Below are positions 2,532-32,885 of a stretch of DNA of 37,019 bases, piece by piece. A program made the position numbers and the translations under genes. The stretch covers positions 1 through 37,019 of the forward strand of contig JAIEOP010000384.1 of assembly GCA_019750465.1 (NCBI GenBank). Direction: 5' to 3'. Numbering within the stretch: position 1 is the stretch's first letter; each line of letters starts with the position of its first letter. The stretch comes from Acetobacteraceae bacterium. GTDB lineage: Bacteria; Pseudomonadota; Alphaproteobacteria; Acetobacterales; Acetobacteraceae. Below the pieces are notes generated by a model, which was not told the DNA's origin, did not search any database, and saw only the letters and a list, made by a program, of their open reading frames with translations.

Positions 2532-2568
2532 CGCGATGATCCGCGCAGTCGCAAGGCCCTGTGCCGCC

Positions 2569-2574
2569 TGGAGG
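2569..2574 (+). promoter_or_regulatory. Shine-Dalgarno deciding the abi start
   Basis: GGAGGA lies seven bases upstream of GTG 2582. The alternative in-frame GTG at 2561 lies before this site and has no purine-rich leader. Confidence 0.6.
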
Positions 2575-2581
2575 ATGGACC

Positions 2582-3400
2582 GTGGCTGATCTCTCGGCCG
2601 TCGAGAAGCGTCACCTGGAGCACCTGCTCGGCATGGGTTCCGGCTATGTGCTGAATTTCTCGAACAACACCTTCGCGGAGTTCGTCTTCGACACCGTCGG
2701 GCGCGACATCTACGACTCGCGATACGATCACGGCAGCAGCAACTCGAAGGCCAACAGGCTCCGGGGATTTTGGGCCAAGGAAAGCAACTATGTCGTCGGC
2801 CAGCTGCTCACCAACCTGATCGAGCTCGCCGTATCTGAAGCGGCGACGCCTCCTAACTCGACGATCCTATCACAGTGTCGCGCCACAGCCCTGCGTCTGA
2901 TCCAGGGCGGGCCGGTGACTGATCTCGATGCGCTTGCCGTCCCGACCGATGATCGGGATTTCGAGGTCGTGGCCCGCGCCGTGCGCGACACCATCGAGAA
3001 GAACCAGCCGGAGGTCGGCCTCGATCGGCTGCACACCTTCGTCGTGAAGTATGTGCGCTCCCTGTGCGAGCGCCGCGGCATCGCCGCGGGCCGCGACAAG
3101 GCGCTGCATGCCATCTTCGGTGAGTATGTCCGGGGGCTTCGCCAGGCCGGGCACATCGAGGCGGAGATGACCGAGCGCATCCTGAAGTCGAGCATCTCCG
3201 TCCTCGAAGCGTTCAATCACGTCCGCAACAATCAGAGCCTCGCACACGACAACAAGCTGCTCGGCTACGACGAGGCGCTGCTGATCTTCAATCACATCGC
3301 GAGCGCAGTCCGGTTCCTTCGCTCGCTTGAATCGAGGTTGGACGCGACGGCGCGTACGCAGCCGGCGCCGCAGCCGGCGGAGGACGATATCCCGTTCTAA
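2582..3400 (+). CDS. Abortive-infection family protein (Abi C-terminal domain)
   Basis: A 272-residue protein from the chosen GTG start. A GGAGGA Shine-Dalgarno at 2569-2574 sits seven bases before GTG 2582, which decides against the upstream in-frame GTG at 2561. The C-terminal part (FNHVRNNQSLAHDN, then DEALLIFNHIASAVRFLRSLE) is the abortive-infection C-terminal domain, with its RN-AH motif. The N-terminal 100 residues (FSNNTFAEFVFDTVG) match the N-terminal segment often found with it. Such proteins are linked to phage exclusion, although their mechanism is usually unknown. It is convergent with hsdS, only three bases between the two stops, inside a defence-gene block. Confidence 0.8.
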   Translation: MADLSAVEKRHLEHLLGMGSGYVLNFSNNTFAEFVFDTVGRDIYDSRYDHGSSNSKANRLRGFWAKESNYVVGQLLTNLIELAVSEAATPPNSTILSQCRATALRLIQGGPVTDLDALAVPTDDRDFEVVARAVRDTIEKNQPEVGLDRLHTFVVKYVRSLCERRGIAAGRDKALHAIFGEYVRGLRQAGHIEAEMTERILKSSISVLEAFNHVRNNQSLAHDNKLLGYDEALLIFNHIASAVRFLRSLESRLDATARTQPAPQPAEDDIPF

Positions 3401-3403
3401 TAT

Positions 3404-4543
3404 TCAGTCCGAGCCGAAGGCTTCGGCGAGCAGCGCAGGCACGAGGCGATCGAGATCATCCGCATTTTGCCCACGTCTGATGAGTAGCAAGCGATCGAAA
3501 CTGCGTTCGAGACGAGCTTGGGCCTCAACGCCCGGCAATGGGATGAGCAGATCAAGAAGCAGCTCAGGGCGCAATCGCTCCCGGCGCGCGCCTTGACCGC
3601 GCGTCAGCAGCGCGAGCTGGTCGTGGAACCACGGCGTTGCGCAGAGATGCGACAGGAATGTCGGGCGCAGCCTGTCGGCCACGCATCGGAAGGTCCGGTA
3701 CTCGGGGGATGCGTACATCCCCTCGAAGGTCGCGTCGCAGACAGCCACGGCGCCCTCCCATCCCTTCACCTGGCTCATGACGAAGTGCCCGGCATGAAGG
3801 CGATTGAAGTGGCGATAGGTTGTGGCGCCCGCTTCGACTGGCGGCTTCGGAAACAAGCCGCCCCCGAACCCACGAATGCCAACCTGCGGATAGCTCTCGC
3901 CAGCGGCAATGGCGACGCGATCCTCGTCGAGGACTAGCGCGTCACCGAGCCTCGTTGGCGCTGTCCCAAAATGAGCGTTCGCCGAGGTGACGAAGTCGGA
4001 GAGGTCGGAACCGATCTCGCTGTGCAGGCGCTTGATCCGCCCAATCCGTGCCTCGACCGCGTCGAGCCGCTCCACGATCCGCTGCTGCTCGTCGAGCGGC
4101 GGGAGTGGCACCGAAACTCCACGAAGCCCGTCCATCGATAGCGTCCGGTTGCGATCAGCGCTCCCCGGCGAAGCCGCCGCCAGTTGAGCGACAGCAACAG
4201 GCGTTCGGAAGAAGGCCCCCAACCACGCGGGCAGCACGCGCTGCCGATCCGCGACGCACGTCAGGTAGCGGTGAGAGCAATACATGCCGTCGTCGGCATC
4301 GGAGACGACGGCAACCGCCCCCTCCCATGCCTTGATATTGCTGACGAGCAGATCGCCCGCCCGAACCTGAAACAGCCGTTGCCAAGTCAGGTCATCACCT
4401 TCCAACGGCGGCTGATGAAAGGTTCCCCGCCCGAAGCTCCGTGCCGCGATGATGGGGTAGTCGCTGCCGATCTCCGCCGCGACGGGACGACGCACAATCG
4501 GAGCGATCTCGCCCAGCGGCATCATCGGCCAACGCACCGTCAC
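3404..4543 (-). CDS. hsdS: Type I restriction-modification specificity subunit HsdS
   Basis: A 379-residue protein that selects the DNA target for the HsdM methylase and HsdR nuclease. It starts with GTG overlapping the hsdM stop (GTGA). The layout is target-recognition domain 1 (about residues 5-150), a coiled-coil conserved spacer (LPPLDEQQRIVERLDAVEARI, to about 185), domain 2 (about 198-335) and a second, shorter helical spacer. The two recognition domains are clearly paralogous. Both have the order YP-RGFG-PP-WEGAVAV-GMY-YRT/LTC-CVADR (YPIIAARSFGRG with KAWEGAVAV, versus YPQVGIRGFGGG with KGWEGAVAV). This suggests similar half-sites in the target. It is the last gene of the hsdR-hsdM-hsdS operon and meets the abi gene tail to tail. 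Confidence 0.92.
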   Translation of the reverse strand: MTVRWPMMPLGEIAPIVRRPVAAEIGSDYPIIAARSFGRGTFHQPPLEGDDLTWQRLFQVRAGDLLVSNIKAWEGAVAVVSDADDGMYCSHRYLTCVADRQRVLPAWLGAFFRTPVAVAQLAAASPGSADRNRTLSMDGLRGVSVPLPPLDEQQRIVERLDAVEARIGRIKRLHSEIGSDLSDFVTSANAHFGTAPTRLGDALVLDEDRVAIAAGESYPQVGIRGFGGGLFPKPPVEAGATTYRHFNRLHAGHFVMSQVKGWEGAVAVCDATFEGMYASPEYRTFRCVADRLRPTFLSHLCATPWFHDQLALLTRGQGARRERLRPELLLDLLIPLPGVEAQARLERSFDRLLLIRRGQNADDLDRLVPALLAEAFGSD

Positions 4544-6120
4544 GCCACCCGCTCAGCGACCAGCGCCTTGATCTCATCGAGCAGAGCCAGGACCCGCCGC
4601 TCCTTATCGATCACGCTTGCGACGATCTCGGCCGGCGCCCGGTGGTCCACCGCCTCCTTCGCCGCCGGGTTCTTCAGGTCGAGGTTGACCGCGATAACAC
4701 GACCTGCCTCGTCGCGGCGGATCAGCTCCGGCCCGTTCACCTTCCAGGCCTGCGGGCCTTCCTCGCGCTGGCCCCACCAGGCGATGCAATCGGCAAATTC
4801 CTCGAACAAGATCGGCCGCGTCTTGGAGTATTTCCGCCGCCCCTCGGGCATCGGCTGCTCGTAGAACCACACATCCCGCGTCGGCCCCGCCGTGTCGAAG
4901 AAGATCACGTTGGTGGGGATGTCGGTGTAGGGCGCGAACACGCCTTCCGGCAGGCGCAGCACGGTGTGCAGGTTGAACTGTTCCAGCATGTCCGCCTTGA
5001 TGCGCGCGCAGACGCCATCGCCAAACAGCGTGCCGTTGGGCACCACCACCGCGGCGCGCGCCGGCCGCCCCGCCGAGGTCTGCGCCCGCTTCAGCCGGCG
5101 CATGATGAGCTGGAGGAACAGCAGTGCCGTCTCGGCCGCCTGCCGGTCCTCCGGGAAGTTGCCCTGGATGCCGCGCTCCTCCTCGCCGCCGAAGGGCGGG
5201 TTGGTGAGGATCACGTCCACCCGGTCGCGCTCGCCGATCTCGGTGAGGCGATGGCGCAGCGCGTTGCCGGGGTCGATGCGCGGCGCATCCAGACCGTGCA
5301 GCAGCAGGTTCATCTGGCAGAGCAGGTAGGGCAGCGACTTCGGCTCGCAGCCCATGAGCGAGGCGGATTGCAGCACGCGCCGGTCCGCCACTGTCCGCAC
5401 CTGGCCGGCGAGATGTGCGAAGGCCTCGACGAGGAAACCGCCGGTGCCGGCGGCGGGGTCCAGCACCGTCTCGCCCAGGCGCGGGTCGGTCACCTGGACC
5501 ATCAGCCGAACCACGGCGCGCGGCGTGTAGAACTCGCCGGAATCTCCCGCTGCGTCGCGCATCTCGCGCAGCATGGATTCGTAGAGCGCGCCGAGGGTGT
5601 GCAGCTCCTCCGACGACGTGAAGTGGATGGCGCCGATCTTGTCGATCACGTCGCGCAACAGGTAGCCGCTGCGCATACGGTTATCGACGCCACGGAAGAC
5701 GGTGGCGATCACGTCCCGCCGGTCATCGCCGTTCGCGCTCGTCAGCCCGCGCAGATAGGCGAAGAGGCCCGGTCCGCGCGTGCCGTCGGGCCGTACGCCT
5801 TCATCGTTGTTGATGAAGGCCAGCAGCTCATCGCCGGTGATGGCCTGCGGGTTGGCCGCCCAGTCGCGCCAGCGATAGGGCGGCTCGATTGCCGGCCGGA
5901 AGCGCGTGGCGGCCAACGCTGCTTCCTGCTCCCGCTGCTGCTCAAGGTCATCGAGGAACTTCAGGAACATGATCCAGGTGAGCAGCGGCAGGCGGTCGAG
6001 GTCGCCGTTCAGCCCCTTGTCCTTGCGCATGACGTCGCGCGCGGATTTCAGCAGCGAGCCGAGCGCCTGCGCCGTGGTCAGTGCCGGCTTCGCGGCGGCG
6101 GCGCGGGGCTTACGCGGCAT
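4540..6120 (-). CDS. hsdM: Type I restriction-modification methyltransferase HsdM
   Basis: A 526-residue N6-adenine methyltransferase. The N-terminal HsdM helical domain covers about residues 15-160, followed by the GEFYTPR segment at about 195-201, the SAM-binding motif DPAAGTGGF at 221-229 and the catalytic NPPF at 307-310. The start is ATG 6120 (MPRKPR), which overlaps the end of hsdR by 11 bases. A longer in-frame reading to 6174 is possible but lies within hsdR coding sequence. With HsdS it protects host DNA; with HsdR it completes the restriction complex. The length and motifs look intact, and the stop overlaps the hsdS GTG. Confidence 0.95.
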   Translation of the reverse strand: MPRKPRAAAAKPALTTAQALGSLLKSARDVMRKDKGLNGDLDRLPLLTWIMFLKFLDDLEQQREQEAALAATRFRPAIEPPYRWRDWAANPQAITGDELLAFINNDEGVRPDGTRGPGLFAYLRGLTSANGDDRRDVIATVFRGVDNRMRSGYLLRDVIDKIGAIHFTSSEELHTLGALYESMLREMRDAAGDSGEFYTPRAVVRLMVQVTDPRLGETVLDPAAGTGGFLVEAFAHLAGQVRTVADRRVLQSASLMGCEPKSLPYLLCQMNLLLHGLDAPRIDPGNALRHRLTEIGERDRVDVILTNPPFGGEEERGIQGNFPEDRQAAETALLFLQLIMRRLKRAQTSAGRPARAAVVVPNGTLFGDGVCARIKADMLEQFNLHTVLRLPEGVFAPYTDIPTNVIFFDTAGPTRDVWFYEQPMPEGRRKYSKTRPILFEEFADCIAWWGQREEGPQAWKVNGPELIRRDEAGRVIAVNLDLKNPAAKEAVDHRAPAEIVASVIDKERRVLALLDEIKALVAERVA

Positions 6121-8473
6121 AGAGCTGTTCCTGCAGTTCGGCGACGGCAGCGCGCAGCTGATCCGCCCCGCCAAACAGGCGGATGATGTCGGCCACCTGG
6201 CCGTGGTTGGAGATCGGCGGGACCTTCAGCACGTCCGGCAGGACGAATTCGGCCTCGCCGTGGGCGGCGTATTTCTCCAACAGTTCCTCCAGGATGGCGC
6301 GGCCCTCGGGGCCGAATTTCGTGAAGACATCAGGCTGGCGCGTGCGCAGCTGCTGCGCCCGTTCCCGCCGCGTGCGCAGCGGGGCGTTGAAGGCCAGGTG
6401 GCAGAGCAGGTCAAAGGGATCGGCCTCCGGCTGCTGCGCCGCCTCGGCAAGCTGGTCGAAGCTGATGCCACGTGCCGCCAAGCGCTGCACGACGGCGGAG
6501 CGCTGCGCCGCGTCCATCCAGGCCGCGCGCAGCTCCTTCGAGGTCGGGTAGAGGGAGCGGACGCTCTCGGCGGCATAGTCGGTGTAGCGCACGACGCGCA
6601 GCTGCGCGCCGGATGGATCGAGCTCATAGACAAGGTGGGCCGCGACAGCGACCTGACCGCCATCGAAGTAGAATTTCTGACGTCTCGCCTCGGGTGGCTC
6701 GATGATCTCGGGCTCGCCGGGCTCTGGCGCGGGTTCCGCGCCCTCGACCGGAATGTCGGTCTCGGAGACGGTCTCGCCGGCTTCGTTCAGCTCCTCCTCC
6801 GTCAGGCGTGCGGGATCGCCGTCGAAGGCGGGGTCAGCGAACAGGCGCGTGGCGGAGCCGGTGTAGTCGATGATGTTGAACCAGAGCTTCCCGTAATCGT
6901 CCCTCACCCGCGTGCCGCGTCCGATGATCTGCTTGAACTCGCTCATCGAGCCGACGATGCGCGCCAGGACGACGTTCTTGCAGGTCGGCGCATCCACGCC
7001 GGTCGTCAGTAGCTGGGAGGTGGTGAGGATCGTTGGCGTGCGCGTGTCCACGTCCTGGAAGCGGCTGAGGTGGCCGCGGCCGATGTCGCCTTCAACGGCA
7101 GTCACGCGGCACACATAGTCCGGGTGCTGCGCCATCATGTCCGCGTTCAACGCGGCCAGCGCCTGGCGCATCTCGGCCGCGTGTTCCTGGTCGACGCAGA
7201 AGACGATGGTCTTGGCGTAGCGATCGGTCTTCCGCAGGAAGCCGTCGAGGTGTTTCGCGATGGCCTGCGTGCGGGCGCGCAGGGCGATGACGCGCTCGAA
7301 GTCCTGGGTCCGGTACTCGTCGTCGGGGATCTCGCGGCCGTAGCGGTCAAGGTCGCCCTGGCTCGGCCGCCACCCGGCAGCGTCCCATTCGGTGATGACA
7401 CGGTGCACCCGGTAGGGAGCGAGGAAGCCGTCATCGATCCCCTGGCGCAGGCTGTACTCGTAGATCGGGTTGCCGAAGTACCGGTAGCTGTCCCGGTTGT
7501 CCTCGCGCAGCGGCGTGGCCGTCATGCCCAGCTGGGCGGCGGGCGCGAAGTGCTCGAGGATCACGCGCCAAGAGCTGTCATCGCGCGCGCTGCCGCGGTG
7601 GCATTCGTCGACGATGATCAGATCGAAGAAATCGGGTGGGTAAGCGCGGAACAGGCCTTCGCGGGATGCGTCCTCGGCGAGTGCCTGGTAGATCGCGAAG
7701 TAGATCTCGCGCCCCATGACGACCTCGCCCGATTCGATCTTGCAGCGGGCGTCGCCGAAGGCGGCGAAGATGCCATCCTTCGGCTGATCGACGAGGATGT
7801 TGCGGTCAGCCAGGTAGAGGATCTTAGGGCGGCGATGGGCGCCGTCGCGGTTCCAGCGGCTGTTCCAGAGCTTCCAGCAGACCTGGAAGGCGACCGTGGT
7901 CTTGCCAGTGCCCGTCGCCATGGTGACGAGCATGCGGCGCTGGCCTTGCAGGATGGCTTCGACGATGCGGTTGATCGCGGTCTGCTGGTAGTAGCGTTCG
8001 TTCTTCCCGACGGTGTGATTGAAGGGGGTGAGCAGGCGATCGGCTGCCTGATCGCTCGCCAGGCCCGTGCCCGCACGATAGCGCGCCCAGAGCTCCGCCG
8101 GTGCCGGGTAGGATGTGCGCGGCGTCTCGGCGCCGGTGAAGTAGTCGATCTCGATGATCTCGGGGCCGTTCGTCGCATAGGCGAATTTCAGACCGAGCAT
8201 CTCCGCATATTGCCGCGCCTGTTGCACAGCATCCGCGGCGCTTTTGTAGCTGGCCTTGGCCTCGACCACCGCGAGGGGGAAGTCGCGCCGGTATCTCAGA
8301 AGGAAGTCCACGCGCTTCGGCGGCTTGCGCACGAAGCCGCGGCCGACCGGGACGATGCGGCCATCCGTGATGGTTCGCTGCTCGGCGATGGAGTGGGGGT
8401 CGGCGTCCCACCCGGCGGCCTGGAGTGCGGGCACGACGTGCCGGCGGCAAGTATCGGCCTCCGTCTCCGTCAT
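6110..8473 (-). CDS. hsdR: Type I restriction endonuclease subunit HsdR
   Basis: A 787-residue ATP-dependent DNA translocase and nuclease. An N-terminal PD-(D/E)xK nuclease is seen as VDFLL (D56) and VVEAKA (E71, K73). The superfamily 2 helicase follows: Walker A ATGTGKT at 186-192, DECH at 289-292, TATP at 318-321 and QIIGRGTR near residue 490. The C-terminus resembles the EcoEI-type HsdR domain. The size fits the EcoEI-like, shorter HsdR subfamily. It is the first gene of the operon, with about 110 bases of leader before the Xre gene stop. All key residues appear intact, so restriction is probably functional. Confidence 0.94.
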   Translation of the reverse strand: MTETEADTCRRHVVPALQAAGWDADPHSIAEQRTITDGRIVPVGRGFVRKPPKRVDFLLRYRRDFPLAVVEAKASYKSAADAVQQARQYAEMLGLKFAYATNGPEIIEIDYFTGAETPRTSYPAPAELWARYRAGTGLASDQAADRLLTPFNHTVGKNERYYQQTAINRIVEAILQGQRRMLVTMATGTGKTTVAFQVCWKLWNSRWNRDGAHRRPKILYLADRNILVDQPKDGIFAAFGDARCKIESGEVVMGREIYFAIYQALAEDASREGLFRAYPPDFFDLIIVDECHRGSARDDSSWRVILEHFAPAAQLGMTATPLREDNRDSYRYFGNPIYEYSLRQGIDDGFLAPYRVHRVITEWDAAGWRPSQGDLDRYGREIPDDEYRTQDFERVIALRARTQAIAKHLDGFLRKTDRYAKTIVFCVDQEHAAEMRQALAALNADMMAQHPDYVCRVTAVEGDIGRGHLSRFQDVDTRTPTILTTSQLLTTGVDAPTCKNVVLARIVGSMSEFKQIIGRGTRVRDDYGKLWFNIIDYTGSATRLFADPAFDGDPARLTEEELNEAGETVSETDIPVEGAEPAPEPGEPEIIEPPEARRQKFYFDGGQVAVAAHLVYELDPSGAQLRVVRYTDYAAESVRSLYPTSKELRAAWMDAAQRSAVVQRLAARGISFDQLAEAAQQPEADPFDLLCHLAFNAPLRTRRERAQQLRTRQPDVFTKFGPEGRAILEELLEKYAAHGEAEFVLPDVLKVPPISNHGQVADIIRLFGGADQLRAAVAELQEQLYAA

Positions 8474-10185: not shown

Positions 10186-10265
10186 CGCGGCGGGGTACAC
10201 GCAGCCGACCCGCGCCTTCGTACTCCCTCGACGCTGCCGCGCTTCGCCAGCCTCCGATGCGACCG

Positions 10266-10282
10266 CCGCGCCCCATGCGCGG
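10266..10282. repeat. Small hairpin upstream of the HTH gene
   Basis: CCGCGC-CCCAT-GCGCGG, a 6-bp stem with a 5-base loop, lies just before the GGAGG ribosome-binding site (10300-10304) of the next gene. It could affect translation; no terminator features are seen. Confidence 0.25.
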
Positions 10283-10310
10283 CATCCGACAGCATCACCG
10301 GAGGCTCCCG

Positions 10311-10595
10311 ATGCCCGACCCGAATGCCGGCCTGCCGCCGCGCTATCTGCGCACGCCCGAGGCCGCGCGCTTTCTCGGCCTGTCCGGCCGCACCCTCGAA
10401 AAGCACCGCACCTACGGTACGGGCCCGCGCTACTCGAAGCTCGGCGGTCGCGTCGTCTACGCCGTCACCGATCTTCAGGCCTGGGTGAACCGGGGCACCA
10501 AGGCCTCGACCAGCGACGACACCGGCGAGACCGTGCTGCCCGCCAAGCGTCACGCCGCGATCTCGCCGGCCTACGCCGGCGCGGCACGCCGCTGA
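10311..10595 (+). CDS. Excisionase/AlpA-like helix-turn-helix protein
   Basis: A 94-residue MerR/HTH_17-type protein. Residues 8-60 show the winged helix pattern PPRYLRTPEAARFLGLSGRT, then EKHRTYGTGPRYSKLGGRVVYAV and TDLQAWV. The start is ATG 10311 with GGAGG at 10300-10304; an upstream in-frame ATG at 10257 has no ribosome-binding site. Proteins of this type act as recombination directionality factors or as small activators. Its constant position before repA in this element class suggests control of replication or transfer. The fold call is strong; the role is inferred. Confidence 0.85.
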   Translation: MPDPNAGLPPRYLRTPEAARFLGLSGRTLEKHRTYGTGPRYSKLGGRVVYAVTDLQAWVNRGTKASTSDDTGETVLPAKRHAAISPAYAGAARR

Positions 10596-10608
10596 GCGCG
10601 CGCCGCCG

Positions 10609-11688
10609 ATGCGCCGCGATGCCACGCCCAGCGAACGACTACGGCTCAGCCCGTTTGACGCGCTACCGGACGACGGCCCACCACGTCGCGACCAGCGCGA
10701 CCTGATGGAGCGGCCGTTCTTCTCGCTGGCAAAGGGCCGCCGCGTTGCGCCGATCCTCTACCGCGCCGGCGACATCGAGGTGCAGGTCCACGCGGTTCCC
10801 GAACACGGCATGGCGACCATCTGGGATGCCGACGTGCTGATCTGGGCCGGCTCGCAGATCGTCGAGGCCGCCGACCGAGGGCTCGCAGCCTCCCGGTTCA
10901 TGCGCTTCGCGCCGCACCAACTGCTGACCGCCATCGGGCGCGGCACCGGCCAGCACCAGTACCTGCTGCTGAAGGCGGCGCTCGCCAGGCTCCAGTCGAC
11001 CGTCATCCGCACCACGATCCGGCACGGCGCGCACTGGCGACGCCAGCAGTTCTCGTGGATCAACGAGTGGGAGGAGCGGGTCACCGCCTCCGGCCGCGCC
11101 GACGGCATGGAGTTCGTGCTGCCGGACTGGTTCTACCGCGGCGTCCTCGATCGGCAGCTCCTGCTGACCATCGATCCGGCCTACTTCCGCCTTACGGGAG
11201 GCATCGAGCGTTGGCTCTACCGTGTCGCGCGCAAGCACGCCGGGCATCAGCCGTTCGGCTGGGCGTTCGAGTTCCGGCACCTGCACGCCAAGTCCGGCAG
11301 CCTCGCGCGCTTCGCCGACTTCGCACTCGATCTCCGCCGGATCGCCGTCCGCCAGAGCCTGCCGGGCTATCGCCTCGCCATCCGCCGCGATGCCGGCGGC
11401 ACCGAGCTGATGCGGATCGTCCCGAGCGGTCATCCTGCTGGCTCTGTGGATAACTTGTGCAGGCCTGTGGGACCGCACGGCAGATCAGGCGCAGGAGATT
11501 CGGCAGATCAGGCGCAGCCGACACGGCAGATCAGGCGCACGAACCACCCGCAAACCATTGCAGCGCAAGCGGAATTCTGGCCCGTAAAGACTCTAATTGA
11601 GTCTAATTCTAATGAAGGTAGGCCCAGCGCCGTCGGTGGAAAACACGACCGGGACGGGGAGCGGGAGGCGGCGCCATGCCGGCGCTGA
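10609..11688 (+). CDS. repA: Replication initiator protein RepA (RPA family)
   Basis: A 359-residue reading frame. Residues 25-270 match the plasmid replication initiator family RPA: RDLMERPFFSLAKG, PEHGMATIWDADVLIWAGSQI, LQSTVIRTTIR, a WINEW segment, LPDWFYRGV and FEFRHLHAKSG. It should bind the origin and start replication of the element, whether plasmid or circular ICE. The last 80 or so residues are low in family similarity. They are encoded by DNA that holds a DnaA box and three iteron-like repeats lying in different reading frames, so this tail looks like a by-product of an origin embedded in the gene. The frame overlaps the DUF2840 start by 13 bases. Confidence 0.9.
   Translation: MRRDATPSERLRLSPFDALPDDGPPRRDQRDLMERPFFSLAKGRRVAPILYRAGDIEVQVHAVPEHGMATIWDADVLIWAGSQIVEAADRGLAASRFMRFAPHQLLTAIGRGTGQHQYLLLKAALARLQSTVIRTTIRHGAHWRRQQFSWINEWEERVTASGRADGMEFVLPDWFYRGVLDRQLLLTIDPAYFRLTGGIERWLYRVARKHAGHQPFGWAFEFRHLHAKSGSLARFADFALDLRRIAVRQSLPGYRLAIRRDAGGTELMRIVPSGHPAGSVDNLCRPVGPHGRSGAGDSADQAQPTRQIRRTNHPQTIAAQAEFWPVKTLIESNSNEGRPSAVGGKHDRDGEREAAPCRR
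11445..11613. other. Candidate replication origin (DnaA box, iterons, AT-rich element)
   Basis: TGTGGATAA at 11445-11453 is a perfect DnaA box read on the minus strand. Three identical 16-mers CGGCAGATCAGGCGCA follow at 11478, 11501 and 11524, spaced exactly 23 bases apart. Next comes an AT-rich stretch with GACTC-TAATT-GAGTC (11589-11603) and TCTAAT repeated at 11592, 11602 and 11608. DnaA box, iterons and AT-rich region next to a rep gene are the parts of an iteron-type origin. Since 23 is not a multiple of three, the repeats encode different peptides, so they appear to be conserved as DNA. Function is inferred. Confidence 0.7.
11478..11539 (+). repeat. Three 16-bp direct repeats (iterons), 23-bp period
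   Basis: Copies of CGGCAGATCAGGCGCA occur at 11478-11493, 11501-11516 and 11524-11539 with no mismatch and constant spacing. They are probably RepA-binding iterons. Confidence 0.75.
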
Positions 11689-12140
11689 CCCGCGTCGAGC
11701 TGCTGTGGCTCGAGGGCCGCGTCGAGCGCTGGATCCGCTTCGGGCGGATCGCCGAGGAGACGATCCTCGACCGCCGCCGTCGCGTCGTCGCCTTCGCCGC
11801 TGGTGAGGTCTTCGCCTTCGTGCGGTGGGCGTCGAACGGCTATGGAACCGTGGTCAGCCGCATCGACATCCTGCGCGCGGTCGCGCCCGGCGAGGCCTTC
11901 AGCACGATCGGCTTCGTGGAGCCGGGGGCGGAGATCCTGCTGCGCATCTCCGGCTGGCCGAAGGTCAACGAGGTGCTTCGCGCGATCGACGCGGTTGAGC
12001 AGACCGGCGTCGCGCCCGAGGCCGCCTGCCCCGACCACTGGCGGCATGTGATGAACCGACTCGCGGCCGGCGAACCGCCGCGCGCCTACACGCGCGAGCG
12101 CCACCGCGCCTGGCTGCTGCGCCGGAGGATCGACGCATGA
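11676..12140 (+). CDS. DUF2840 family protein
   Basis: A 154-residue protein typical of the backbone of alphaproteobacterial conjugative elements, always found between repA and traF. Visible family features are TRVELLWLEGRVERWIRFG, the ILDRRRRVVAFA segment and FVRWASNGYGTV. A conserved LRISGWPKV and C-terminal RAYTRERHRAWLLRRR follow. It has no signal peptide and no known catalytic motif. It overlaps the repA tail and its stop overlaps the traF start (ATGA), so the genes are co-translated. The molecular function is unknown; a role in transfer or replication is inferred from constant synteny. Confidence 0.85.
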   Translation: MPALTRVELLWLEGRVERWIRFGRIAEETILDRRRRVVAFAAGEVFAFVRWASNGYGTVVSRIDILRAVAPGEAFSTIGFVEPGAEILLRISGWPKVNEVLRAIDAVEQTGVAPEAACPDHWRHVMNRLAAGEPPRAYTRERHRAWLLRRRIDA

Positions 12141-12667
12141 CGGCGCGGCGGAGACGGCGCGCGGCGCCGGTCGCGGCCATGCTCGCCGGGCTGGGGCTGA
12201 TTGCTGTTCCAGCGGTCGCGGAGTGGCAGCCGCGCATCATCTGGAATGCGTCGGCGAGCGTGCCGCTCGGCCTCTACATCGCGGGACCGGCCGAGGAAAT
12301 CGCGCTGGGCGACCTCGTCCTCATCCGCCCGCCCGAGACGCTGGCGGCGTTCCTCGCCGAGCGCGGCTACGTCGCGCGCGGGGTGCCGCTGCTGAAGCAC
12401 GTCGCAGCCCTGCCGCCGCAGGTGGTGTGCGCAGAGGGCACCGAGATCAGGGTCGACGGCGAGACGGTGGCACACCGCCGCATGGCTGACCGCCTGGGCC
12501 GCGCGCTGCCGACCTGGCACGGGTGCCACAGGCTTGAATCCGGCGAGGTGTTCCTCCTCAACCCCGCCGAGCCGGACAGCCTCGATGGCCGCTACTTCGG
12601 ACCACTCCCATGCACGAACATCGTCGCCCGGCTGCGTCCTGTCTGGATCACGGGGCGCGGACCATGA
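12137..12667 (+). CDS. traF: TraF-like S26 family signal peptidase
   Basis: A 176-residue membrane-anchored serine peptidase. One N-terminal membrane segment (residues 11-29) is followed by NASASVPLGLY with the likely nucleophile S41 and LLKHVAALPP with the general base K87, the Ser-Lys dyad of the S26 family. In RP4, TraF processes the TrbC pilin precursor and helps cyclise it; a TrbC homologue is encoded at 32286. It lies between DUF2840 and the transglycosylase gene, overlapping both by four bases. Both catalytic residues are present, so the enzyme is probably active. Confidence 0.9.
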   Translation: MTARRRRRAAPVAAMLAGLGLIAVPAVAEWQPRIIWNASASVPLGLYIAGPAEEIALGDLVLIRPPETLAAFLAERGYVARGVPLLKHVAALPPQVVCAEGTEIRVDGETVAHRRMADRLGRALPTWHGCHRLESGEVFLLNPAEPDSLDGRYFGPLPCTNIVARLRPVWITGRGP

Positions 12668-13482
12668 CCACGACGCCCCCTTTCCATGCGCCCCCATTGG
12701 CGACGCGCGGCGCTCCGGCAGGGCGTGCTCAACAGCGCGGTCCCTCCCTCCCGTCCCGGTCGTGGCCCTGCATCGCAGCCGTGCTGCTGCTGGTCAGCCT
12801 TCCGCTGTCCGGGGGAGCGGCGCAGACGATCCATGCGGCCGAGATCGCGTCTGCATCACAGCGTTTCGGCATTCCGGAACCCTGGATCCGAGCCGTGATG
12901 CGCGCGGAGAGCGCCGGCGATCGGCACGCCGTGTCGCACCGCGGCGCCATGGGGCTGATGCAGGTGATGCCGGCAACCTGGGCGGGTCTGCGCGCACAGC
13001 ACGGCCTCGGCGCAGATCCCTTCGCGCCGCAGGACAACATCCTGGCGGGGACCGCGTATCTACGCGAGATGCTGGACCGCTTCGGGTCGGTGCCGCTGAT
13101 GCTGGCGGCCTACAACGCCGGGCCGCGCCGGGTTGAGGCGCATCTGGCGACGGGGCAGCCGCTGCCGGCGGAGACGCGAGCCTACGTCGCAGCTCTCGCG
13201 CCGCCGCTCACCGGTGACACCGGCACCGCTGCGGTTGACCAGGTTTTGCTTCGTTCTGCACGCAACGCTGACGGTATCTTCGTGCTGCTCGGCGGTGACG
13301 ATGCGGCACCGACGCGGTCAATCTTCGTGCCGGTTGGCGGCGCGACAATCGCAGCCGGTACAACAGCCGCGCGGCCACTCATCGGCCGATCCCGAGCAGC
13401 GGAGGCGCACGAGGCCGACGGTCCAGCGGACCATCGACGTTCCATCTTCGCCATCCGTCGTAGCTCGGGCGGTGCACCATGA
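12664..13482 (+). CDS. Lytic transglycosylase of the conjugation machinery (VirB1/TrbN type)
   Basis: A 272-residue exported peptidoglycan hydrolase. A hydrophobic signal segment covers about residues 35-53. The SLT domain follows (residues 60-175): the catalytic Glu in MRAESAG (E82), GAMGLMQVMPATW, the NILAGTAYLREML helix and LAAYNAGP. The start ATG 12664 overlaps the traF stop; an upstream in-frame start would lie inside traF. Such enzymes open the cell wall for the type IV secretion channel. The C-terminal 100 residues are low in complexity and not part of the domain. Confidence 0.9.
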   Translation: MTTTPPFHAPPLATRGAPAGRAQQRGPSLPSRSWPCIAAVLLLVSLPLSGGAAQTIHAAEIASASQRFGIPEPWIRAVMRAESAGDRHAVSHRGAMGLMQVMPATWAGLRAQHGLGADPFAPQDNILAGTAYLREMLDRFGSVPLMLAAYNAGPRRVEAHLATGQPLPAETRAYVAALAPPLTGDTGTAAVDQVLLRSARNADGIFVLLGGDDAAPTRSIFVPVGGATIAAGTTAARPLIGRSRAAEAHEADGPADHRRSIFAIRRSSGGAP

Positions 13483-13798
13483 GCGATGGCGTTCGGACGG
13501 AGGGCATCGCGCGGCCCTGCAGTCTCACCCATGTCGCACATGCGCGCAGGCTCGGGTGCTTCTGTCGTTCTGCCGGCTACTCCAGGACCGACCACCAAAG
13601 CGGTGGAGGCGGGGAACCGAGGAACCCCGACCGCAGATCGCCAGATAAAAGCAGGGCAGGCGGTCGGTCGTATGTGTCTGATCCAGCGCAGAAATTCGCG
13701 TCCCGCCCCAAAGCGGCGGCTGGCGCTTCGTGCCAAAAGCCAAGGCGAATCAACGGTCTCAGCGCCAGCCGCCTCTGCCCGCGCGCGGATCGCCGGCC
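13483..13798. other. Intergenic region before the relaxase, candidate oriT
   Basis: There are 316 bases between the transglycosylase and the relaxase. A 107-codon open frame (13479-13802) overlaps the previous stop but resembles no protein I know. The region is rich in inverted repeats: GGCGGCTGGCGCT (13715-13727) with AGCGCCAGCCGCC (13761-13773), a perfect 13-bp pair; ATTCGC/GCGAAT (13694-13699, 13745-13750) nested across it; GACCGACC/GGTCGGTC (13586-13593, 13662-13669); and CCACC/GGTGG (13592-13606). Inverted repeats directly upstream of a relaxase gene are the usual setting of oriT. The nick site is not identified. Confidence 0.5.
13715..13773. repeat. 13-bp perfect inverted repeat, likely oriT core
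   Basis: The arms GGCGGCTGGCGCT and AGCGCCAGCCGCC are separated by 33 bases and end 25 bases before the relaxase ATG. This is the strongest repeat in the transfer region and a candidate relaxase recognition site. Confidence 0.55.
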
Positions 13799-15556
13799 AT
13801 GACGACCCGCGACGACGACCTGGTTGTCCGCCCTGGCCGCATCGGCGACACGCGTGTGCCAACCCGCCGCGCGCGGAGCTTCGTCGGCCAGGTCATGCGG
13901 GCCGTCCGCAAGGCTGGCCACACCGGCCCAGGCTTCGGCCGCGGCGCACGCGGTGTCGGTCGCTCACGCTTCGGGCGTGGCCGCGCCGCGGCGGCACAGG
14001 CGGCGCTCCGCTCGCCCGCGCGACGCGTCGTCATCAAGGCGCGCGTCGTGCGCCACCAGGGCACGCGCTTCCGCTCCGCCTCCCTCGCCACCCACCTCGG
14101 CTACCTCCAGCGCGACGGCGTGACGCGCGACGGCGCCAAGGCACGGCTTTTCGAAGCGAGCTCGGACAACGCCGATGCCCGAGACTTCGAGGAGCGTTGC
14201 ACGGATGACCGCCACCACTTCCGCTTCATCGTCAGCCCCGAGGACGCACCCGCGCTCGCGGACCTGAAGGCCTGGACGCGCGACCTGATGCGCCAGGCCG
14301 AGCAGGACCTCGGCAGCCGTCTCGATTGGATCGCGGTCGATCACTGGAACACCGACAACCCGCACGTCCATGTCCTGCTGCGCGGCCGGGCCGAGGATGG
14401 CGGCGACCTGGTGATCTCGCGCGACTACATCTCGCGCGGCTTCCGTGGACGCGCTGAGGCGCTGGTCGAGCTGGAACTCGGGCCGCGGACCGAGAAGGAG
14501 ATCCGCAGCACGCTGGAGGCCGAGGTTGGTGCCGAGCGCTGGACCGGTCTCGACCGCGCGCTGCGCGCCGCCGCCGATGAGGGTGGCGGCATCCTGGACC
14601 TGCGCCCCGCCGGCGCGGACGCCGCCGATCCGGAACTCCGTCGCCTGATGGTCGGCCGGGCGCAAACGCTGGAGCGGTTCGGCCTCGCCGAACGCCTTGG
14701 GCCGGCGGTCTGGACGCTCAAGCCAAGCATTGAGGAGACGCTGCGTGACCTCGGCACCCGCGGCGACATCATCACGACCATGCACCGTGCCATGCAGGGA
14801 CTCGGTGCCGAGCGGGCGGCCGGCGACTTCGCCATCCATGGTGACCGGCCTGAGCCGATCATCGGCCGTCTTGTCGAGCGCGGCATCGCCGACGAGCTCA
14901 AGGGCAGGGGCTACGCGATCATCGACGGCATCGATGGCCGCGTGCACCACCTCCGCTTCGCAGATATTGAGTCGACCGGCGACGGGCACCCAGGTGCGGT
15001 CGTCGAGCTCCGCCGCTACCAGGATGCCGGCGGGCGGGAGCGCAGCGCGCTCGCGGTGCGGTCGGACCTGTCGGTCGAGGCGCAGGTCACCGCCGAGGGC
15101 GCGACCTGGCTGGACCGGCGCTTGCTGGACCGAGAGGCGCTGCCGCTGGCGCGGCAGGGCTTCGGTGCAGACGTCGAGGGCGCGCTCGCCCGGCGGGCCG
15201 AGCATCTCGTCGCAGCCGGTCTCGCGCGCCGGCAGGGTCAGCGTGTGGTCTTCGCGCGCGATCTGCTCAATACGCTGCGCCAGCGCGAACTGGAGGCGGC
15301 CGCCACGCGGGTGACGGCCGAGACAGGGAAGGCGTGGCGGCCGGCGCGGGAGGGGGACGGCGTCGCCGGGGTCTTCACCCGACGCCTCGACCTTGCCTCG
15401 GGGCGTTTCGCGATGATCGACGACGGGCTCGGCTTCCAGCTGGTGCCGTGGAAGCCGGCGATGGAGCGGCAGCGGGGACTGGCCGTGGCGGGGAGCATCG
15501 CGCCTGGCGGCGCTCTTGAGCTCACACCCACGCGCAAGCGAGGCCTCAGCCTCTGA
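13799..15556 (+). CDS. rlx: VirD2/DUF3363-type relaxase
   Basis: A 585-residue relaxase that nicks oriT and leads the strand into the recipient. The start ATG 13799 (MTTRDDDLVVRPGRIGD) matches the usual RPGRI N-terminus of the family; an upstream GTG at 13730 falls in the putative oriT. The N-terminal relaxase domain contains LATHLGYLQRDGV, the tract ASSDNADARDFEERC, HHFRFIVSPED and the metal-binding histidines in DHWNTDNPHVHVLLRG at about residues 181-196. The C-terminal DUF3363 half runs from about 220 to the end. It lies upstream of traG with a 154-base gap. The domains appear complete. Confidence 0.92.
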   Translation: MTTRDDDLVVRPGRIGDTRVPTRRARSFVGQVMRAVRKAGHTGPGFGRGARGVGRSRFGRGRAAAAQAALRSPARRVVIKARVVRHQGTRFRSASLATHLGYLQRDGVTRDGAKARLFEASSDNADARDFEERCTDDRHHFRFIVSPEDAPALADLKAWTRDLMRQAEQDLGSRLDWIAVDHWNTDNPHVHVLLRGRAEDGGDLVISRDYISRGFRGRAEALVELELGPRTEKEIRSTLEAEVGAERWTGLDRALRAAADEGGGILDLRPAGADAADPELRRLMVGRAQTLERFGLAERLGPAVWTLKPSIEETLRDLGTRGDIITTMHRAMQGLGAERAAGDFAIHGDRPEPIIGRLVERGIADELKGRGYAIIDGIDGRVHHLRFADIESTGDGHPGAVVELRRYQDAGGRERSALAVRSDLSVEAQVTAEGATWLDRRLLDREALPLARQGFGADVEGALARRAEHLVAAGLARRQGQRVVFARDLLNTLRQRELEAAATRVTAETGKAWRPAREGDGVAGVFTRRLDLASGRFAMIDDGLGFQLVPWKPAMERQRGLAVAGSIAPGGALELTPTRKRGLSL

Positions 15557-15710
15557 CCGCGTGCAGCGCTGCTGGATCGGCCCGGTAGGGTCCCCCGCCG
15601 ATTCGTGCGATGCGCTCGCCGCGGCTACGACGCAGGTCCGCGACTGCTTGAACACGGGCACGCCGATCGCGCACGTCTCGCGCCATGGACGCCGCTCGCC
15701 CCACCCAACC

Positions 15711-17687
15711 ATGACCGCGACCAGGATCCTTTGGGGCCAGGTCCTGGTTGTCTTCCTGATCGTGCTCGCCGCGGTCTGGGGCGCGACGCAATGGGTTGCC
15801 TGGCGCCTCGGCTACCAGCCGCAACTCGGGCAGCCGATGGATGTCTGGGGCGGCGTGCCGGTCTACCCGCCGCCCGCCTTCTTCCTGTGGTGGTACTGGT
15901 ACGACGCCTACGCGCCGCGGGTCTTCTACGAGGGCGCCATCATCGCCGCCGCCGGAGGCTTCGCGGCGATCGGCATTGCCATCGGCATGTCCGTGTGGCG
16001 CGCCCGCGAAGCGCGGGACGTCACCACCTACGGCTCGGCCCGCTGGGCGACGGAGCGCGAAGTGCGCGACGCCGGGCTGCTCGCCCCCGATGGCGTTGTG
16101 CTCGGCTGGTTTGCCCGGCGCTACCTTCGCCATGACGGGCCGGAGCACGTGCTGTGCTTCGCGCCGACGCGCTCCGGCAAGGGCGTCGGCCTCGTCGTGC
16201 CGACACTTCTGACCTGGCCGGGTTCGGCCATCGTCCACGACATCAAGGGCGAGAACTGGCAGCTCACCGCCGGCTGGCGGGCGCGCTTCGGGCGCGCGCT
16301 GGTGTTCGATCCGACCAACCCGGCGAGCGCCGCCTACAATCCGCTTCTCGAGGTCCGCCGCGGCGACAGCGAGGTCCGCGACGTGCAAAACATCGCCGAC
16401 ATCCTGGTCGACCCCGAGGGCGCACTGGAGCGACGTAACCACTGGGAGAAGACCAGCCACTCCCTGCTGGTCGGCGCAATCCTGCACGTCCTCTATGCCG
16501 AGGAGGACAAGACCCTCGCCGGCGTGGCGAGCTTCCTTTCCGATCCGCGTCGCCCGATCGAACGCACGCTGGCGGCGATGATGACAACGCCCCACCTCGG
16601 CGACCGGCCGCACCCAGTCGTCGCCTCCGCCGCGCGCGAGTTGCTCAACAAGTCGGATAACGAACGGTCCGGTGTGCTGTCGACGGCGATGAGCTTCCTC
16701 GGCCTCTATCGCGATCCGGTCGTTGCGCAGGTCACCCGCCGCTGCGACTGGCGGATCGCCGACCTGGTCGAAGCGCGCGAGCCGGTCACGCTCTACCTCG
16801 TCGTCCCGCCCTCGGACATCGTCCGCACCAAGCCGCTGGTGCGGCTCGTGCTGAACCAGATCGGCCGCCGGTTGACCGAGTCGCTGGAGAACGAAAGGCG
16901 TCGCCATCGGCTGCTGCTGATGCTCGACGAGTTCCCCGCGCTCGGACGCCTCGACTTCTTCGAGAGCCAGCTCGCCTTCATGGCAGGCTACGGCATCCGG
17001 TCCTTCCTCATCGCGCAGTCGCTGAACCAGATCGAGCGTGCCTACGGGCCAAACAACGCGATCCTCGACAACTGCCACGTCCGCGTCGCCTTCGCGACGA
17101 ACGACGAGCGCACGGCCAAGCGGGTCTCTGATGCGCTCGGCACGGCGACGGAGATCCGCGACAGCCGGAACTATGCGGGCCACCGACTGTCGCCTTGGCT
17201 CGGGCATCTGATGGTGTCGCGGCAGGAGACGGCGCGGCCGCTGCTGACGCCGGGCGAGGTGATGCAGCTGCTACCGACCGACGAGATCGTCCTGGTCTCG
17301 GGCTGCCCGCCGATCCGCGCGCGGAAAGCACGCTACTACGAGGACCGACAGCTGCGTGCGCGCGTGGTCGCGCCACCGGATCCGGCGGCGGCTGCGCCCT
17401 GTGCGCTTCGTGCGGATGACTGGAGCGCACTGAAGCCTCTCTCGCGTAATGATGGGGCGGCATCCGCCGACGCAGGTGACGATGCTGACGGCGGCATCCG
17501 CCGAGAGCCGAGTCTGCCCGAGCACGAACAGATCGCGCCCGAGCCCAGCCCGCCACCCGAAAGAGAGTTCATCTTCGCGGAGGACGATCAGAACGACGAC
17601 GCATCGCGCACCCGTGCCCTCGCAGCGCGTGCTCGCCGCGTGGCCCGCCAGGCGGCACTCGACCCCGACGACGGCATTGCCCTCTGA
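15711..17687 (+). CDS. traG: Type IV coupling protein TraG (VirD4 family)
   Basis: A 658-residue membrane ATPase that links the relaxosome to the mating channel. Two N-terminal membrane segments (about residues 5-25 and 75-95) precede the VirD4 signature, Walker A APTRSGKG at 151-158 and Walker B LLLMLDEFPALG near 402-413. The chosen start is ATG 15711 (MTATRILWGQ); the frame is open upstream to 15516, but that part overlaps the relaxase and has no similarity. The acidic tail (EPSPPPEREFIFAEDDQ) is variable in the family. The CopG gene follows six bases later. All catalytic motifs are present. Confidence 0.94.
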   Translation: MTATRILWGQVLVVFLIVLAAVWGATQWVAWRLGYQPQLGQPMDVWGGVPVYPPPAFFLWWYWYDAYAPRVFYEGAIIAAAGGFAAIGIAIGMSVWRAREARDVTTYGSARWATEREVRDAGLLAPDGVVLGWFARRYLRHDGPEHVLCFAPTRSGKGVGLVVPTLLTWPGSAIVHDIKGENWQLTAGWRARFGRALVFDPTNPASAAYNPLLEVRRGDSEVRDVQNIADILVDPEGALERRNHWEKTSHSLLVGAILHVLYAEEDKTLAGVASFLSDPRRPIERTLAAMMTTPHLGDRPHPVVASAARELLNKSDNERSGVLSTAMSFLGLYRDPVVAQVTRRCDWRIADLVEAREPVTLYLVVPPSDIVRTKPLVRLVLNQIGRRLTESLENERRRHRLLLMLDEFPALGRLDFFESQLAFMAGYGIRSFLIAQSLNQIERAYGPNNAILDNCHVRVAFATNDERTAKRVSDALGTATEIRDSRNYAGHRLSPWLGHLMVSRQETARPLLTPGEVMQLLPTDEIVLVSGCPPIRARKARYYEDRQLRARVVAPPDPAAAAPCALRADDWSALKPLSRNDGAASADAGDDADGGIRREPSLPEHEQIAPEPSPPPEREFIFAEDDQNDDASRTRALAARARRVARQAALDPDDGIAL

Positions 17688-20176: not shown

Positions 20177-20755
20177 TCACGCGATCCTCACCCCGGTCCA
20201 GGCGGGAGGATCGCTTGCCGGAAAGGACTCTAGACTGGCCTCCTCGACCGGATCCTGTCTCGGCTCATCCTCGGCATGGGCAGCAAGGAGCCAAGGCCGA
20301 ACGCGGCTGATCGCGTCGCTCATGTCGCTCCGCAGCTGCTCCGCGTAGCTTCTGTAGCGCACGCGACGCGGGGGTGGCTCCGCGACCTCGTAGCGCCATC
20401 CGTGCCGCTCGGCGAAGGCTTCCGCGCTCTGCCTGTCCGGGAACTCAAGTCGCACGAGCGCGAGCGGATCCGTGCTGCCGATCCATCCGGTGAGCGGGTC
20501 GATCGGCGGCGGCGACGATGGCACGAACTCCAGGACCCAGCGCTGCCGTCCTGGCGCGGATTGCGTGACGGAACGACCCGGCTGATGGATGCGCACGAGC
20601 GGGAGCCGCCATCGGCCGGCCGATGAAGCGCCGCCCGGCAGGAGCGGCACCGATTTTTCCGGGCCGGTCCCGCTCCCCGCTCCGGTAGCTGGCGCCACTG
20701 CCTCGCCCCAAGTCGGAAGAGAGGCCGGAAGGACTGAAGGTGGGCGTGAGGCCAT
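20177..20755 (-). CDS. NDUFS4-like (ETC complex I subunit domain) protein with stress-protein tail
   Basis: A 192-residue protein. Residues 50-145 match the ETC complex I subunit conserved region known from NDUFS4: VRIHQPGRSVTQSA, RQRWVLEFVPSSPPPIDPLTGW, VRLEFPDRQSAEAFAERHGW and a Y-E-V-P-R-SYAEQLR end. The last 30 residues carry EEASLESFPASDPPAW, a motif shared by many small alphaproteobacterial proteins of unknown role. The first 50 residues are low in complexity. It starts 11 bases after the clpG stop, so it is likely co-transcribed. Why a complex I-type domain sits in a chaperone island is unclear; protection of respiratory chain assembly is only a guess. Confidence 0.75.
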   Translation of the reverse strand: MASRPPSVLPASLPTWGEAVAPATGAGSGTGPEKSVPLLPGGASSAGRWRLPLVRIHQPGRSVTQSAPGRQRWVLEFVPSSPPPIDPLTGWIGSTDPLALVRLEFPDRQSAEAFAERHGWRYEVAEPPPRRVRYRSYAEQLRSDMSDAISRVRPWLLAAHAEDEPRQDPVEEASLESFPASDPPAWTGVRIA

Positions 20756-20766
20756 GGCGGCAGCGT

Positions 20767-23586
<2,820 letters not shown>

Positions 23587-23652
23587 CAGATCCGCTCCCT
23601 CTCCGGATCCGCTGCCAAGGTCGCGGATCCTGTCATGGCGTGTCTGTCGTCC

Positions 23653-25461: not shown

Positions 25462-25538
25462 GTACGGCTCCGACCGTCAGCGCGAAGCGGATATGAACGC
25501 ACAAGACCTTTCGGCCGTAAGGGACAAAAGCAGGCGGA

Positions 25539-32289: not shown

Positions 32290-32606
32290 CGCCCACGCTG
32301 CGCACGCGCCTCGCCGGCGCGGCCGCCTTCGCGCTCTGCCTCGCGCTCGCCGCACCCGCCCACGCCGCCGGCTCCAACATGCCCTGGGAGCAGCCCCTGC
32401 AGCAGGTGCTGGAATCCATCGAGGGCCCGGTCGCCAAGATCATCGCGGTGATCATCATCATCGTCACCGGCCTGACGCTCGCCTTCGGGGACACGTCCGG
32501 CGGCTTCCGGCGGCTGGTGCAGATCGTCTTCGGGATCTCGATCGCCTTCGCGGCGTCGAGCTTCTTCCTGTCGTTCTTCCAGTTCGGCGGCGGGGCGCTG
32601 ATCTGA
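32286..32606 (+). CDS. trbC: Pilin precursor TrbC
   Basis: A 106-residue prepilin of the VirB2/TrbC family. A signal peptide (about residues 1-28, ending AHA) is followed by two hydrophobic helices (IIAVIIIIVTGLTLAFG and FGISIAFAASSFFLSFF) that form the pilus subunit. It is a likely substrate of the TraF peptidase encoded at 12137. It overlaps trbB by four bases and shares one base with trbD (TGATG). Confidence 0.9.
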   Translation: MTPTLRTRLAGAAAFALCLALAAPAHAAGSNMPWEQPLQQVLESIEGPVAKIIAVIIIIVTGLTLAFGDTSGGFRRLVQIVFGISIAFAASSFFLSFFQFGGGALI

Positions 32607-32878: not shown

Positions 32879-32885
32879 GGCGGCG

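Follow-up and report, generated by a model that had tools for sequence, protein, structure and literature searches.

The 3′ end of repA in the DNA analysed here (37,019 bases, hereafter referred to as the window) very probably contains the origin (oriV) of a Tn4371/trb-type ICE, located inside the element's own initiator gene. An iteron-type origin had been predicted at this position from the sequence of the window, and computational comparison with related loci supports this reading well, through the conservation of the module, its copies outside the reading frame, selection on the DNA and covariation with the initiator. Phased direct repeats, a DnaA box and an AT-rich element beside the iterons are all present in the window.

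A DnaA box, iterons and an AT-rich block in the repA tail

Translation and Pfam identified repA (10609–11688, plus strand) as the gene for a 359-amino-acid replication initiator of the RPA (PF10134) type. The entire profile was matched (positions 1–228 of 228, E = 1.9e-79), but only by residues 27–256, which places the module described here beyond the PF10134 domain. A motif scan confirmed the predicted perfect DnaA box, TTATCCACA, on the minus strand of the repA tail (11445–11453). It is the sole occurrence of TTWTNCACA in the window, with 0.13 occurrences expected in the shuffled window and at least one obtained in 11 of 100 shuffles. Three identical 16-mers, CGGCAGATCAGGCGCA, follow on the plus strand, at 11478–11493 (iteron 1), 11501–11516 (iteron 2) and 11524–11539 (iteron 3), with the predicted exact period of 23 bp; as had also been predicted, they begin in different codon frames, at offsets 2, 1 and 0 of the repA frame, respectively.

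This array was the sole row reported for the window by Tandem Repeats Finder (score 100). The 15-mer GGCAGATCAGGCGCA had three exact matches in the window and no further ones at up to two mismatches; at up to three mismatches, the five matches in the window compared with 4.3 in shuffles, so only the exact copies stand out. No second iteron array was detected in the 37,019 nt with either Tandem Repeats Finder or the mismatch scan with GGCAGATCAGGCGCA, and no family was matched in an Rfam scan of the window. Downstream from a spacer (11540–11591, plus strand), which encodes QAEFWP in the clade of the window and mostly the clamp-motif-like QL[TS]LWPE elsewhere, lies the predicted AT-rich block, a putative DNA unwinding element (11580–11619, plus strand) supported by a G+C scan and by the G+C minimum of relatives. 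It contains three TCTAAT repeats (11592–11597, 11602–11607 and 11608–11613). The G+C content was 47.5% in the 80-nt window 11540–11619 and 55% in the overlapping next one, with values of 62–81% in the other 80-nt windows from 10300 to 12179.

RepA is predicted to be a double winged-helix initiator

The AlphaFold model of RepA (46-row alignment; mean pLDDT 65, pTM 0.59) contains two predicted winged helices, with helices at residues 115–130 and 235–248. The tail is predicted to be disordered, with pLDDT below 50 over residues 275–355 and block means of 26–35 from residue 281 onward. Foldseek searches with this model retrieved RctB (E = 3.9e-9) and RepE54 (E = 4.5e-5), and the model is consistent with an initiator that has two winged-helix domains and is related to Rep_3, RepE and RctB. 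The Pfam Rep3_N profile gave no match in the window RepA and matched, below the cut-off only, the repA of three relatives. When the RepA alignment was searched against the sequences of solved structures, the single match was to a ribosomal protein (E = 0.22).

Several assignments were considered and rejected. RepB of RA3 matched no Pfam family and did not resemble the window RepA, and the RepB homology expected of an IncU RA3-type replicon was therefore not found. RepA of R388 belongs to PF04796 and likewise has no similarity to the window RepA. A repABC (RP-C) replicon was discounted, as the window RepA belongs to PF10134 and the segment has iterons.

The module lies in the core of a Tn4371/trb-type element

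The window is the whole of one contig of a 522-contig assembly and ends within trb genes. All the following genes are on the plus strand and were assigned with Pfam. Upstream from repA are a DUF2285/RovC-type regulator (PF10074; 9307–10185) and a helix-turn-helix (HTH_17) protein (10257–10595) at the rdfS place of this ICE type, the name rdfS being given by position only, after PMC8627217 (section 15). Downstream, the start of a DUF2840 gene (11676–12140) overlaps the end of repA by 13 nt and is followed by the ICE core block (12137–17687), consisting of an S26 peptidase (12137–12667), a lytic transglycosylase (12610–13482), a DUF3363 relaxase (13730–15556) and a TraG-type coupling protein (15516–17687). 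A trb-type mating-pair block (31321–36070) includes a T2SSE ATPase at the TrbB place (31321–32289), TrbE (32817–35324) and the gene after TrbE (35321–36070). These neighbours are the core of a Tn4371/ICEMlSym-like trb ICE. A scan of 30 window proteins, selected from the 155 ORFs listed, gave no integrase match.

The relaxase gene is about 2 kb away, within a conjugation cluster, a position that would also suit an oriT or another relaxase or partition site. A DnaA box and an AT block would not be expected there, the segment lies directly after repA and before parA in Tn4371-type elements, and the sites track RepA residues in a covariation analysis run against RepA rather than the relaxase (see below). 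We therefore consider a transfer or partition site extremely improbable and oriV the preferred reading.

The same genome harbours a second RPA element on another contig (C409, locus L001), with a RepA 93.6% identical to that of the window and the same three iterons and DnaA box; a single host thus carries two elements of one iteron type. The ICE core adjoins a type I restriction-modification set on the minus strand (3404–8473), made up of HsdS-like (3404–4543), HsdM (4540–6174) and HsdR-like (6110–8473) genes. A helix-turn-helix protein followed by a RES-domain protein at 1140–2026 has a layout that we take to be that of an Xre-RES toxin-antitoxin pair; proteins with HIRAN (2031–2531) and Abi_C (2561–3400) domains come after the RES-domain gene. 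A 1608-codon open frame at 20740–25566 had no Pfam match, and long frames are also present on the opposite strand. An SDH-type ClpP-like serine protease (PF01972; 28518–30131) lies as cargo between the relaxase region and the trb genes.

Conservation of the module in related loci

The original prediction had proposed a comparison across related repA genes and had named absence of the repeats from close relatives as one of the outcomes that would count against it. Such absence was looked for, and the repeats were found instead: in a close set of 82 sequences, comprising the window, its second same-genome copy and the best 80 of at least 583 relatives (obtained from 600 listed stretches), 81 had three iterons in the tail, the sole exception being L033, with two. 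This search was confined to the tail; a fourth hit with three mismatches, far from the triplet, was disregarded in six loci. As a single-period scan missed most relatives, which have a spacing of 24 and then 23 bp, scans allowing two spacings were used. The 24/23 spacing was found in most of the close set, 23/23 in the five members of the window clade and in L013 and L041, and 33/23 in L056, which also has three iterons in the tail. The codon offsets were 2, 2 and 1 in most of these relatives, versus 2, 1 and 0 in the window. The iteron unit itself varies between loci (CGGCAGATCAGGCGCA, CGGGACTTCGGGCGCA, CGGGACTTCGCACGCA and others).

A de novo triple-repeat finder, which also covered 350 nt past the repA stop, was then applied to genome and plasmid loci. 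L002 and L124 (the window itself), together with the non-homologous L083 and L084, had been excluded beforehand. Hits were obtained with tblastn for 150 of 153 entries, 149 of which had a stop codon. The window array scored 45, against a cut-off of 36; across the 149 loci, the maximum was 32 for an equal-length stretch upstream from the tail and 29 for shuffles (one per locus). Triplets were found in frame in 96 loci and downstream from the stop in 25, and no triplet was found in 28. These 28 loci include L033 and L148, with two copies each; L142 and L154, scoring 34 and 30, respectively, at 24/23; L056, only because its 33-nt spacing exceeds the limit of the finder; and L120, whose RepA is ICE-like (64% identical to its query) but which has no triplet. 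Most of the others are distant RPA types. From the 121 triplet loci, we removed five distant ones (L091, L127, L150, L151 and L156) and three with a 21-bp spacing (L096, L097 and L155), leaving an ICE-type set of 113 loci with a triplet at 22–24 bp, in which plasmids and unclassified contigs are included. Relatives were picked by similarity to the RepA of the window or of Tn4371, or from the kin of the window, and PF10134 is unevenly sampled as a result.

The triplet lies inside the reading frame in 94 of the 113 loci and 5–36 bp past the repA stop in the other 19. A box with no more than one mismatch to TTATCCACA was present in the 70 bp upstream from the iterons in 82 of the 94 in-frame loci (mean number 1.19, versus 0.005 in repA-body windows and 0.013 in shuffles) and absent from 12, but it was present in only four of the 19 out-of-frame loci, in which the boxes mostly had two mismatches (15/19). 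The 110 nt downstream contained CTAA[CT] repeats in 92 of the 94 in-frame loci (mean 2.99, versus 0.017) and in 19/19 out-of-frame loci, and the G+C minimum downstream from the iterons was below that of the repA body in all loci of both kinds (94/94 and 19/19).

These accompanying elements bear on the possibility that the repeats are RepA sites for control only (autorepression, titration or incompatibility), with the true origin elsewhere or absent. The repeat array DR1 of RA3 is described as titrating its initiator (PMC9455977), and the covariation reported below speaks for recognition and not for initiation. Nevertheless, the iterons are accompanied by the AT dip, the CTAA[CT] repeats and the DnaA box, the last of these chiefly in in-frame loci; moreover, the array is at the 3′ end of repA and not over its promoter, and the repeat and mismatch scans yielded no second array in the window. 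We consider a purely regulatory role quite unlikely, and an origin the better account.

In the AT block, a palindrome of the type GAATCCTTCGGATTC lies between CTAAC repeats in L090, L110, L112, L115, L118 and L119 and in the in-frame locus L114; it was not seen in the window. Loci L096, L097 and L155, with another RPA type, have iterons spaced by 21 bp (four copies in L096 and L097), 86–94 bp past the repA stop and followed by an AT-rich stretch. The RPA locus L150 has about five repeats at 22–24 bp past the stop, preceded by a DnaA box.

The module is found inside and outside the reading frame

The 19 out-of-frame loci are from Delftia (L086), an E. coli plasmid (L088), Pseudomonas (L089), Bradyrhizobium (L090), Polaromonas (L102) and further genomes (L103–L112, L115, L118, L119 and L146). 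Their RepAs end shortly past the domain, and a triplet such as TCGTGCTATCAGG follows, with 24/23 spacing in 19/19 and CTAAC-type repeats after it. In the Tn4371-type repA genes among them (Delftia, Polaromonas, E. coli and Pseudomonas plasmids, and Bradyrhizobium), the stop comes early and the 24/23 triplet lies 7–36 bp further on. In the in-frame relatives, the repA stop lies within an ATGA in 88 of 94 loci. Of the 88 frames that start at this overlap, 39 read as ParA-like and the other 49 had no assigned identity; a general coupling of repA to DUF2840 was consequently dropped.

A tree was estimated for 58 RPA domains, kept from 118 rows after thinning at 93% identity. The in/out label required three changes on this tree, versus a mean of 15.6 for shuffled labels (bootstrap range 3–5, the bootstrap not having settled), and L112 (outside) and L114 (inside) were sister loci (support 99/89). 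The small number of changes, together with this sister pair, indicates that an origin-like module of fixed layout has crossed the border of the reading frame, in or out, more than once. The more distant L091, L127 and L150 lead us to guess that the outside state might be ancestral; against this, the triplet is in frame in the equally distant L151 and L156, and these rows sit on long, uncertain branches of a tree with an uncertain root.

Selection acts on the DNA of the iterons

The claim that selection acts here on DNA rather than protein was upheld by the loss of the codon-position pattern in the iterons and by the presence of the module outside the frame. In 66 unique sequences with 24/23 spacing (from the best 80 of at least 583 relatives), the mean entropies at codon positions 1/2/3 were 0.19/0.13/0.78 and 0.35/0.24/1.01 for two parts of the RPA domain, 0.15/0.56/0.61 for iteron 1, 0.17/0.47/0.65 for iteron 2 and 0.52/0.73/0.16 for iteron 3, the frame of which differs from that of iterons 1 and 2 in these sequences. 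The window clade provides a naturally occurring frameshift: most relatives have iterons 2 and 3 at offsets 2 and 1, this clade has them at 1 and 0, and the DNA repeats are unchanged despite the shifted reading frame.

A repetitive protein segment, with the DNA repeat as a secondary effect, would be consistent with the continuation of the frame through the module in in-frame relatives and with the QL[TS]LWPE part of the tail, which looks protein-selected (see below). It is refuted for the iterons by the Tn4371-type triplets of near-equal spacing outside the ORF. The copies lie in different frames, the codon-position bias is lost or reversed within them and the tail is predicted to be disordered. 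A protein-level origin of the repeat therefore has next to no probability, and we treat the iterons as DNA sites.

Covariation between iterons and RepA

The iteron letters followed residues located in or beside the AlphaFold helices at 115–130 and 235–248. For the 111 loci with iterons in a readable register, position 11 was G with D241 (94 loci) or E241 (7), C with Q241 (9) and A with H241 (1); position 14 was G with D237 (94) and A with H237 (8) or R237 (7), with two exceptions. At position 16, A accompanied R234 (76/76), C accompanied P234 (14/17) and G or T accompanied K234 (13/18); at position 4, C accompanied Q117 (34/35) and G accompanied D117 or E117 (76/76). In the 76 unique sequences with CGG-type iterons, the top-scoring RepA column belonged to the helix set for seven of the eight variable iteron positions, this set consisting of 20 of the 113 variable columns, with residues 233 and 234 added after a first list had been seen. 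D241 scored 0.86 for position 11, versus 0.35 for the best outside column, and R234 scored 0.83 for position 15, versus 0.29. At position 4, however, Q59, an outside-helix column, scored 0.72, versus 0.62 for H116 and Q117, suggesting that the signal from the first helix is partly clade history. When the helix columns were left out of the tree, Q/H241 and A at position 12 were each found in 10 of 102 rows, with nine changes each; only one or two covariation pairs were independent on well-supported branches, too few to reach significance. Given that the iteron letters follow the predicted recognition-helix residues, the iterons are most likely bound by RepA.

The joint change of iterons and recognition-helix residues within the family, together with the continuing identity of the three window copies, which should decay in a vestige, argues against a vestigial plasmid origin disused by the ICE and kept through rare autonomous replication or the need for an open frame into the next gene. 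For such a vestige, it may be noted that ICESyms are described as having lost repA and DUF2840, making these genes dispensable in some ICEs (PMC8627217, section 15), and that the stop codon of repA and a start codon overlap in most in-frame relatives. We consider a disused origin very unlikely, and favour one that is still recognized by its initiator.

A clamp-motif-like peptide in the translated tail

It had been suggested that the last 80 or so residues of RepA may simply be translated origin. This holds for the iteron-coded part, which is predicted to be disordered and has lost the codon pattern, but probably not for the QL[TS]LWPE stretch, which looks selected. A QxxLxP motif, mostly QL[TS]LWPE, was found between iteron 3 and the AT block in 69 of the 82 close-set sequences (best 80 of at least 583 relatives), and began 7 nt past iteron 3 in 68 of these 69. 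Across 58 unique sequences from this set, its codons vary largely synonymously (CTT/CTC, CAG/CAA, CTA/TTA, ACC/ACG/ACT), unlike the iterons, which suggests a selected peptide; some of its bases (TGG, GAA) barely vary and the DNA there is well conserved too, so a constraint at DNA level is also possible.

The peptide resembles a beta-clamp-binding motif, and the tail might bind the clamp through it. In the window RepA, the sole clamp-motif-like pentapeptide is QAEFW, to which QADMF of E. coli polymerase III is a parallel. QLDLF is described as a canonical clamp-binding motif (PMC11381352). An N-terminal Q[LVMI]xL[FW] was present in 24 of the 113 RepAs (16/19 out-of-frame and 8/94 in-frame) and a tail Q[LP]xL[FW] in 73, all in frame; no RepA had both, and 16 had neither. 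These 16 are the five window-clade members (QAEFWP), others with departures (ELTLW, QLTLS, QLNLC, QLSLE, QLDQF and PLQLF) and a few without any resemblance, for example L006, L007 and L072. At the corresponding N-terminal position of the alignment, the main clade has RLDPF. Outside the 113-locus set, L091 has an N-terminal QLDLF and L127 a QVDLF. The swap between N-terminal and tail motifs looks like one deep event, not many.

Comparison with known replicons

Origins inside initiator genes are already known (lambda O, pSK41, pT181, repC and RA3), and the present case is a further variant. In lambda, 19-bp iterons lie in the middle of O, with an AT-rich block beside them; the protein is unrelated and works with lambda P. 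The initiators of pSK41 and pT181 belong to other families (RepA_N and rolling-circle), as does TrfA, and the RK2 origin is outside trfA. The likeness of lambda to the window lies in the four iterons within O (PMC3985674). In the staphylococcal pSK41 and pT181, which differ from the window in not being in ICEs, the origin is also inside the rep coding region, and the part of the protein that it encodes is described as unnecessary for replication and, in pSK41, as a linker (PMC5703833). The alphaproteobacterial repABC plasmids likewise have oriV inside their initiator gene, repC, but this origin is described as having no iterons or DnaA boxes and its initiator is of the RP-C family (PMC3155836). 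In IncU RA3, oriV was mapped experimentally to the 3′ end of repB and the adjacent AT-rich region, as in the window, but a 25-bp motif is present only once in the gene, with the DR2 repeats downstream (PMC9455977). TrfA of RK2 is also an iteron initiator, with a beta-clamp-binding motif reported to matter for replisome assembly (PMC4980987). RepA of pPDL2 is described as resembling the RPA and Rep-3 domains, and a mini-replicon of this plasmid, in which the iterons lie upstream of repA, is reported to be functional (PMC3516476).

The Tn4371-family ICEs (for example in Delftia, Polaromonas pPNAP01 and E. coli pECO-109b) share with the window a homologous PF10134 RepA, three iterons (24/23 bp) and CTAAC-type repeats, in the gene order DUF2285-HTH-repA-par-DUF2840. 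They differ in having the triplet in the intergenic region past the repA stop and a RepA with an N-terminal QLDLF and no tail. The repA gene of Tn4371-type ICEs is said to have a possible role in replication (PMC2789088), and elsewhere as encoding a putative Rep_3 initiator that is absent from ICESyms (PMC8627217, section 15). No title or abstract opening on the origin of Tn4371-type ICEs was found among the matches listed, in a search that left subscription papers mostly outside. The large plasmids pMLb and Bradyrhizobium p184_1, which have such a repA, also carry a RepC initiator, and neither therefore serves as natural proof that the module drives replication. In the 20.5-kb Sphingobium plasmid L091, searched for the RP-C and Rep_3 families, neither was matched.

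A possible mechanism and its implications

From the layout of the module, we infer the following course of events. RepA, as a Rep_3-like double winged-helix initiator, would bind the three phased iterons, with its first winged helix reading the 5′ half of each iteron and its second the 3′ half. DnaA would occupy the box upstream, and the two proteins would jointly melt the downstream AT block, rich in CTAAT, for the loading of helicase and polymerase onto the excised circular element. The ancestral origin may have lain just past the repA stop, as it still does in Tn4371-type elements, and loss of this stop would have allowed translation to continue through the origin. Much of the translated tail would be a by-product, in which the conserved peptide of one large alphaproteobacterial branch may recruit the beta clamp. 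The full scenario, in which an initiator that came to translate its own origin gained a beta-clamp-recruiting QL[TS]LWPE in its tail, replacing an N-terminal QLDLF that decayed to RLDPF, is tentative, and we give it somewhat less than an even chance. If true, about 170 bases would at once bind the initiator, provide the DNA to be melted and encode a protein part that recruits the replisome, and a clamp motif would have been transferred from one terminus of the initiator to the other.

With a probable origin located and its recognition code readable, plasmid-like replication of excised Tn4371/trb ICEs becomes testable, and the code predicts which of these elements and plasmids should be incompatible. 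The loci with the module inside and outside repA provide natural pairs for studies of the cost of translating an origin and of the emergence of a new protein part from non-coding regulatory DNA.
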